Origin: an uncultured beta proteobacterium
GTDB taxonomy: Bacteria; Pseudomonadota; Gammaproteobacteria; Burkholderiales; Burkholderiaceae_C
Direction: 5' to 3'
Assembly (NCBI GenBank): GCA_903886275.1
Contig: CAISLN010000119.1
Location: 1 to 64,000 of the forward strand
Length of the DNA: 64,000 nucleotides
Shown: positions 1-5,959 of the stretch, piece by piece
Layout: every line of letters starts with the position of its first letter
Position numbering within the stretch: position 1 is the first letter of the stretch
Translations under genes and position numbers: made by a program
The notes under the pieces: model-generated
Seen by the model: the letters and a program-made list of their open reading frames with translations, nothing else
What the model was told of the DNA's origin: nothing
The model's database searches: none

Positions 1-22
1 AACTCATGCACGGAGGCCGTGT

Positions 23-106
23 ATGAGTTGCCTGTTTCGCCAAAACAGGCACGGCGCGCCAGCGCTGCACGGCGCAGCCGTGCGCATGCACGGAGGCCGT
101 GTATGA
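23..106 (+). CDS. putative 27-aa mini-ORF in repeat unit 1 ([27 protein letters not shown])
   Basis: ATG at 23, TGA at 104-106 overlapping the ATG at 103 (ATGA). Below the length cutoff of the ORF track; coding status is unproven. Confidence 0.4.
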   Translation: MSCLFRQNRHGAPALHGAAVRMHGGRV

Positions 107-186
107 GTTGCCTGTTTCGCCAAAACAGGCACGGCGCGCCAGCGCTGCACGGCGCAGCCGTGCGCATGCACGGAGGCCGTGTATGA
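103..186 (+). CDS. putative 27-aa mini-ORF in repeat unit 2, identical peptide, stop overlaps murG start
   Basis: ATG at 103, TGA at 184-186 overlapping the murG ATG at 183. Coding status is unproven. Confidence 0.4.
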   Translation: MSCLFRQNRHGAPALHGAAVRMHGGRV

Positions 187-1334
187 GTAAACCCTTGAAC
201 GCCGCAGGGCCGCCCCAAGGCGTGAGGGCCCCCTTGGGGGGCAGCGCAGTACACGCAGTGACAAGCGTGAGGGCCATACCCTGCGCATTGGTCATGGCCG
301 GCGGCACCGGCGGCCATATTTTTCCGGGGCTGGCCGTGGCCGAGGCCCTGCGCGCCAAGGGCTGGCGCGTGCACTGGCTGGGCGCACCCGAGAGCATGGA
401 AAGTCGGCTGGTGCCGGCGCGTGGTTTTGCGCTGGAGCTGGTGGACTTCTCCGGCGTGCGCGGCAAGGGCCTTGCCACGCTGGTGCTGTTGCCACTGCGC
501 CTGCTGCGCGCCTTCTGGCAAAGCCTGCAGGTGCTGCGCCGCGTCCAGCCCGATGTGCTGGTCGGCCTGGGTGGCTACATTACCTTCCCCGGCGCCATGA
601 TGGGCGTGCTGGTTGGCAAACCGCTGGTGTTGCACGAGCAAAACTCGGTGGCCGGCATGGCCAACAAGGTGCTGGCAACTGTGGCAGACCGCGTGTTCAC
701 CGCCTTCCCCAAGGTGTTTGCCAAGGGCGTTTGCGTGGGCAACCCGCTGCGTACCGAGTTTCTGCAGCAGGCCGAACCGGCGGCGCGTTTTGCCGGGCGC
801 ACCGGGCCCCTGCAGCTGTTGGTGGTGGGCGGTAGTCTGGGCGCGCGTGCCTTGAACACCCTGGTGCCCAAGGCGCTGGCGCTGATGCCGCAAAATCAAC
901 GTCCCATCGTGCTCCACCAAAGCGGCGAGAAGCAGATCGACGAATTGCGCGCCAACTACGCCGCCAGCGGCGTCACGGCCGAGCTCAGCCCCTTTATTAC
1001 CGACACGGCCGCCGCCTTTGCCGGCGCCGACCTGGTGTTGTGCCGCGCCGGTGCCAGTACCGTCACCGAACTGGCCGCCGTGGGCGCGGCTGCGGTGTTT
1101 GTGCCTTTCCCTTCTGCTGTGGACGACCACCAGACCCACAACGCCCGCTTCCTGGTGGACCAGGGTGCGGGCTGGCTGATGCCCCAAGGCGCGTTGACGC
1201 CTGAAGGCTTGGCCGCCTTCATCCAGAACACCGACCGCCATGCGTTGCTGCAACGCGCAGTGGCTTCCAAAAACATGCAGCAGCTGCGCGCCACCGATGC
1301 GGTGGTGGCCGCTTGCGAGGAACTTTGCAAATGA
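183..1334 (+). CDS. murG: UDP-N-acetylglucosamine--N-acetylmuramyl-(pentapeptide) pyrophosphoryl-undecaprenol GlcNAc transferase
   Basis: [19 protein letters not shown]..., [25 protein letters not shown], followed by murC; ATG at 183 preferred over the upstream GTG at 99. Confidence 0.97.
207..242 (+). repeat. REP-like inverted repeat inside the murG 5' coding region
   Basis: GGGCCGCCCCAAGGCGTGAGGGCCCCCTTGGGGGGC, with CCCCAAGG/CCTTGGGG arms; 19 bp identical to a copy at 5769-5787. Confidence 0.65.
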
Positions 1335-5733: not shown

Positions 5734-5768
5734 CCATGCACAAGCGCAACATTCGCATGAGCGCAGCC

Positions 5769-5787
5769 GGGCCGCCCCAAGGCGTGA
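5769..5787 (+). repeat. fragment of the REP-like element upstream of ftsZ
   Basis: GGGCCGCCCCAAGGCGTGA, identical to 207-225 in murG. Confidence 0.6.
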
Positions 5788-5959
5788 AGGTCAGTGGCTG
5801 TGCAATCTGCGAAGTGGCAATTGTCAGGGTACCATCCAGCCGTCCGCATTGGAGATGGCGATGTATAGGACCTCCTTCGTGAGCTAGTCAGGGAATGGCA
5901 ACTACAAGAAAAACAACAACAGCATTGATTCACGTAATTTGAAATTTAGGAGTAGCAAA

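Follow-up and report, generated by a model that had tools for sequence, protein, structure and literature searches.

A tandemly repeated unit at the ftsW–murG junction as a probable translated relay spacer

The 80-bp tandem repeat preceding murG is probably a locus-specific, translated relay spacer that keeps ftsW and murG coupled, a reading to which we assign a probability of roughly two in three. The window analyzed here comprises bases 1–64,000 of contig C119, from a genome assembled in 132 contigs. Tandem Repeats Finder reports in this window a repeat at 5–188 with a period of 80, 2.3 copies and 100% matches (score 368), confirming the duplication described in the first-pass annotation, and the two identical 27-codon mini-ORFs linked to each other and to murG by ATGA overlaps are likewise as claimed there (Table 1). 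The contig starts at window base 1 with five ftsW bases followed by two repeat units, and ftsW itself is found together with murD on the partner contig C21 of the same assembly. The FtsW C-terminus on C21 reads ...IDHENRQLMHGGRV (in a longer stretch, ...HENRQLMHGGRV) and ends at the predicted ATGA, which bears out the earlier expectation that the upstream gene stops there. Two further proposals are supported as well: what was duplicated is a stop/start junction, and the resulting units can be translated and act as spacers separating genes that are coupled. The single unit on the partner contig, the covarying hairpin and the occurrence of the unit across the family, all described below, go beyond that annotation.

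In the proposed relay, a ribosome ending ftsW would reinitiate at the overlapping ATGA, translate the mini-ORF through its hairpins to the next ATGA, and there reinitiate on the following unit or on murG. Translation of murG, an essential gene, would thereby stay coupled to that of ftsW despite the 80–250 nt added between them, and the exact removal or addition of units by way of the direct repeats would give arrays of 0–3 copies. Reporter studies in E. coli and Haloferax revealed that hardly any reinitiation is left once the intergenic gap reaches ~20 nt, and that no more than the final 15 nt of the preceding gene are needed for it (PMC10666635). Given this published gap limit, an insert of 80–250 nt would uncouple the two genes unless it were translated and carried the same junction at its end. 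The anatomy of the unit, its reading-frame rule, the covariation of its helix arms, its distribution and the differences in unit number between close species are observed directly, while the reinitiation, the coupling of ftsW to murG and any effect on the amount of MurG are what we infer from them.

Each unit is composed, in order, of the ftsW 3′ end copied in reverse complement, a TTTnnnCAAAA core with part of that end copied directly behind it, a pair of small hairpins, and the terminal ~17–22 bp of ftsW as a direct copy, with its Shine–Dalgarno GGAGG and start codon ATGA. Helix 1, a hairpin of 21 bp with a loop of 3 nt (AAACAGGCAACTCATGCACGG / CCGTGTATGAGTTGCCTGTTT), joins the end of ftsW to the first half of the unit; of its 5′ arm the last 13 bases alone fall in the window, at 1–13. 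As long as ftsW is not being translated, this hairpin may hide the start of the mini-ORF. A shorter helix within the unit (helix 2) shares one strand with helix 1, so that the two exclude each other. The C21 copy, folded over its terminal ~155 bases, gave −82.8 kcal/mol (z = −7.2), and a search of the 64-kb window itself for hairpins with arms of at least 17 bp (at most 1 mismatch, loop of 3–10) returned none. The small middle hairpins vary in sequence, with a mean z of −1.8 over 42 units. A consensus structure computed for the entire unit was limited to helix 1 plus a portion of hairpin 3, because the variable middle aligns poorly.

Table 1. Features of the ftsW–murG junction, in window coordinates
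Feature	Position	Strand	Description
ftsW 3′ end	1..26	+	codons ...QLMHGGRV, TGA at 24–26; remainder on C21
Shine–Dalgarno GGAGG for mini-ORF 1	12..16	+	within the ftsW coding end; read from the sequence
Helix 1, 3′ arm	17..37	+	pairs with C21:36638–36658 in ftsW; spans the ftsW stop and the mini-ORF start
Unit 1	23..102	+	80 bp
Mini-ORF 1	23..106	+	27 codons; start within the ftsW stop (ATGA), end in ATGA
Helix 2	29..51	+	TGCCTGTTT (29–37) with AAACAGGCA (43–51); unit 2 equivalent at +80
Two further small hairpins	53–66, 67–83	+	variable middle; repeated in unit 2 at +80
ftsW tail copy ATGCACGGAGGCCGTGT	86..102	+	original at 6–22, second copy at 166–182; Shine–Dalgarno and start for the next ORF
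GGAGG repeats	92–96, 172–176	+	for mini-ORF 2 and murG, respectively; read from the sequence
Unit 2	103..182	+	80 bp; identical to unit 1; missing from the overlapping C21 end
Mini-ORF 2	103..186	+	27 codons; terminal ATGA is the murG start
murG	183..1334	+	N-terminal extension from a dispersed repeat at ~196–278

The reading frame obeys a fixed rule. The ftsW stop overlaps a start codon in an ATGA-type arrangement, as in translational coupling by termination–reinitiation, at 122 of 122 junctions with or without inserts, and the frame opened there leads to murG directly in 83 and by relay in 39, with no exception. At all 37 insert-bearing junctions, the ORF starting at the ftsW ATGA runs uninterrupted to the ATGA of another unit or of murG, a conserved hand-over that makes serial reinitiation, as suggested in the first-pass annotation, the reading best supported by the comparative data. 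Every final unit has a length of 2 mod 3 (80, 83, 86, 89 or 116 bp), and the inner units measure 80, 83 or 89 bp (separate ORFs) or 84 or 87 bp (read through into the next unit), being 2 or 0 but never 1 mod 3. Stops are rare in the units owing to their high GC content, and in a simulation with shuffled middles and a random length change of ±1, 58% of units were still translated through, MurG fusions included. The frame evidence consequently rests on the 2-mod-3 length rule, for which the chance is 1/3 per independent case, the cases being related and not all independent. Inserts of unrelated sequence also form ATGA-to-ATGA mini-ORFs, namely in Cupriavidus (L118), in Variovorax (L047), and in two genomes of two other families (L165 and L166).

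Several of these junctions have features of their own. Cupriavidus laharis (L118) carries a different palindromic repeat between two GATGCGCGGAGGCAAGGTATGA-like ftsW tail copies and a relay ORF of 43 codons, and in the Variovorax genome the relay mini-ORF, which is without the family core, seems to be made of a repeat related to the dispersed GPPQG type. L166 (G606, from another family of the order) has a long hairpin at the FtsW end and a 12-codon ATGA-to-ATGA mini-ORF before murG, without tail duplication. In G426, which was analyzed apart, the last tail copy is short of one base, yet translation in this frame would still stop at the ATGA of murG.

Comparison of the junction across relatives, a check proposed together with the original observation, revealed arrays of 0, 1, 2 or 3 units. 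Among 99 ftsW–murG junctions gathered solely by MurG similarity, and hence not chosen for the unit, 14 carry a homologous unit at this position, in other Comamonadaceae. Strict patterns detected the unit in 24 of 400 further genomes of the family (23 by a first pattern and 1 by a second), a count that leaves out an extra, unrelated match in L146 located away from ftsW|murG; the reversed-pattern control gave 0 matches in the 400 further genomes. The core pattern is confined to ftsW|murG in 11 of 11 insert-bearing genomes checked. Many relatives lack the unit, and its number varies among close species. Arrays of 2–3 units lie intact on single contigs in L050, L065, L077, L104, L133, L139 and L148, and some multi-unit arrays hold non-identical units. 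On the MurG tree, presence is clustered, requiring 21 changes as compared with 31.7 for shuffled labels, yet well-supported branches make at least 11 of them unavoidable. Two unit types occur in the Acidovorax/Comamonas group: L133 and L065 contain both, L134 and L135 the first only, L053–L055 the second only, and L056 neither. This pattern is best read as an old (alpha + beta) two-unit array with later differential loss. Direct repeats of ~17–22 bp flank the unit, so exact loss or gain of units would be possible. The unit's fixed arm of 15 nt, its gap of 3 nt ahead of CAAAA and its core are common to ~15 genera. The unit middle (~29 nt) on contig C102 of G426, a genome of another genus, is nearly identical to window positions 54–83, a hint that genera may have exchanged units.

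The arms of both helices covary. In helix 1, 97.1% of cells are paired, as compared with 84.4 ± 1.0 after shuffling; double-change cells number 73 versus 24 shuffled, and the covariation score is 0.354 versus 0.116 shuffled and at most 0.10 when the arms are slid. In helix 2, 90.7% are paired, and the score is 0.491 versus 0.229 shuffled and at most 0.15 when slid. The arm inside the unit tracks the ftsW codons of its own host: in a set of 24 distinct arm pairs, 207 of the 216 positions that vary are paired with their own partner, as compared with 148 ± 6 (never above 173 in 5000) once each arm is matched with that of another species. Compensatory changes of the kind expected of a conserved structured RNA are thus present, and template switching can yield the same signal; the covariation could reflect selection on the RNA or repeated template switching. 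G–U outnumber A–C departures in the arms by 8 to 2, a count that leans weakly to selection on the RNA strand and is suggestive only. By comparison, the mini-ORF peptide has a pN/pS of ~0.85 by a crude count over nine sister pairs with differences. The amino-acid sequence is thus little conserved, a conserved micropeptide or functional small protein gene is unsupported, and the peptide is probably a by-product.

Several points weigh against the relay spacer. The retained GGAGG of murG could allow initiation without coupling, the scarcity of stops in GC-rich units limits the frame evidence to the length rule, the covariation could come from template-switch mutation instead of selection, and most relatives do without the unit. 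An elaboration of the relay, which we hold only tentatively and consider rather improbable, takes the unit as a translation-sensing RNA switch whose number would set the FtsW:MurG ratio; that copy number could tune murG expression was also suggested in the first-pass annotation. Ribosomes finishing ftsW would block the long helix, so that the short helix forms and the mini-ORF starts are used, whereas upon failure of ftsW translation the long helix would hide the start and murG would fall; unit number (0–3), shifting by slippage between direct repeats, would make the ratio quickly changeable. A distinctly unlikely alternative sees the unit chiefly as a structured RNA with a regulatory role (for example as an attenuator, as a target of RNase III or RNase E processing, or through a hairpin governing access to the murG start), its open frame being merely what tolerance in a translated operon demands. 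The covariation of both mutually exclusive helices with their shared strand, the two additional middle hairpins that persist with changing sequences, and the unconserved peptide would fit such an RNA; but many close relatives lack the unit, the 8-to-2 count is a weak sign of selection on the RNA strand, the frame rule is obeyed without exception, and Rfam gives no match above the gathering score.

Neutral debris is a competing account of the element's origin that we judge unlikely. According to this account, quasi-palindromic template switching and tandem slippage at the junction create and homogenize the units, which persist only where murG stays undisturbed. Template switching is known to create, maintain and repair perfect hairpins (PMC8794818), an 11-bp quasi-palindrome (CTCATGCACGG-AGG-CCGTGTATGAG) is already present in zero-unit relatives such as L019, unit number differs among close species, and non-homologous inserts occur at the same site. 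Against it, the arm, gap and core fixed across ~15 genera argue for one ancient conserved element, and ancestral alpha + beta arrays with differential loss imply long retention. Insertion of a mobile palindromic element (REP/MITE-like) with target-site duplication would account for the direct repeats flanking the unit and for its scattered distribution, with the forced changes on the MurG tree. This origin is very improbable, as the core occurs nowhere else in the 11 insert-bearing genomes and the inverted arm follows the host ftsW codons, unlike an element of fixed sequence. A dispersed mobile element was rejected on the same grounds: the 11 genomes checked contain no dispersed copies of the kind that defines REP/MITE families, and the sequence is not constant.

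The copy number in the source genome is a separate matter. The two units upstream of murG described in the first-pass annotation stand on C119; C21 continues past ftsW with a single unit, then ATGAGTAAAC (the murG start), and then ends. As the two contigs overlap, the assembly contradicts itself, and its break sits inside the repeat (G000:C21:36757 and C119:1). The source genome may thus hold one unit, two or a mixture, and the two units of the window are uncertain. That the second unit arose as an artefact of assembly, with one unit in the true array, is a serious possibility, somewhat short of an even chance: the discrepant contigs and the break exactly at the repeat favor it, while relatives have 2- and 3-unit arrays on single contigs, some with non-identical units that no artefact would make. 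A second assembly, G426, likewise breaks inside the element (C84 and C102). With two assemblies breaking exactly within it, the element may be under-counted in draft genomes.

The relay spacer can be compared with several known systems. Bicistronic designs (BCD) in synthetic biology employ a short leader ORF that carries the Shine–Dalgarno sequence of the next gene near its end and an overlapping stop/start, and ribosomes translating the leader open structure at the target start. The window shows the same layout, with the GGAGG repeats of Table 1 and ATGA at 103 and 183; unlike BCD, the arrangement is natural, lies downstream of a full gene, is tandemly repeated and has a hairpin pairing back into the upstream gene. 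Transcription attenuators and leader-peptide switches use mutually exclusive helices. Helices 1 and 2 resemble these in sharing a strand and in both covarying, and a translating ribosome would decide which of them forms; the differences are that no terminator was identified, that the peptide has no regulatory codons, and that the unit lies inside an operon. Termination–reinitiation at ATGA overlaps (PMC6728339, PMC10666635) shares the −4 overlaps, the Shine–Dalgarno sequence near the stop/start and the strong need for a short distance. Distinct from those systems, the coupling junction itself is duplicated here, forming translated structured spacers in series at a single conserved locus. Template-switch hairpins (PMC8794818) are alike in having perfect inverted copies beside a quasi-palindrome, but the unit is locus-specific, occurs in many genera and keeps its open reading frame throughout. 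Rickettsia palindromic elements and other REP/MITE in genes are similarly palindromic, in-frame, tolerated inserts, although they are dispersed and the arms of the present unit are host-specific ftsW copies. Rfam, searched at gathering scores, gave as its best sub-threshold hits unrelated miRNA hairpins, and the literature searched for ftsW/murG coupling or similar mini-ORFs yielded nothing; as far as these two sources go, the element was not found described.

If the relay reading is true, leader cistrons form a natural series that is still evolving between two genes essential for the cell wall, the repeated part being the coupling junction itself. The dozens of sequences would provide a comparative test of how strictly termination–reinitiation limits inserts in operons, and a test case for distinguishing selected RNA structure from hairpins maintained by template-switch mutation. 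In addition, the element marks a junction at which draft assemblies break.

A different repeat lies in murG itself. The dispersed repeat at window positions 196–278, which extends the N-terminus of MurG, has ~20 partial copies in the genome, and it is also found at the murG start in L015, L016, L017, L018, L022, L025 and L046, in tandem in L018 and L046. A short copy of it is located at window positions 5758–5790, right after ftsA and before ftsZ.
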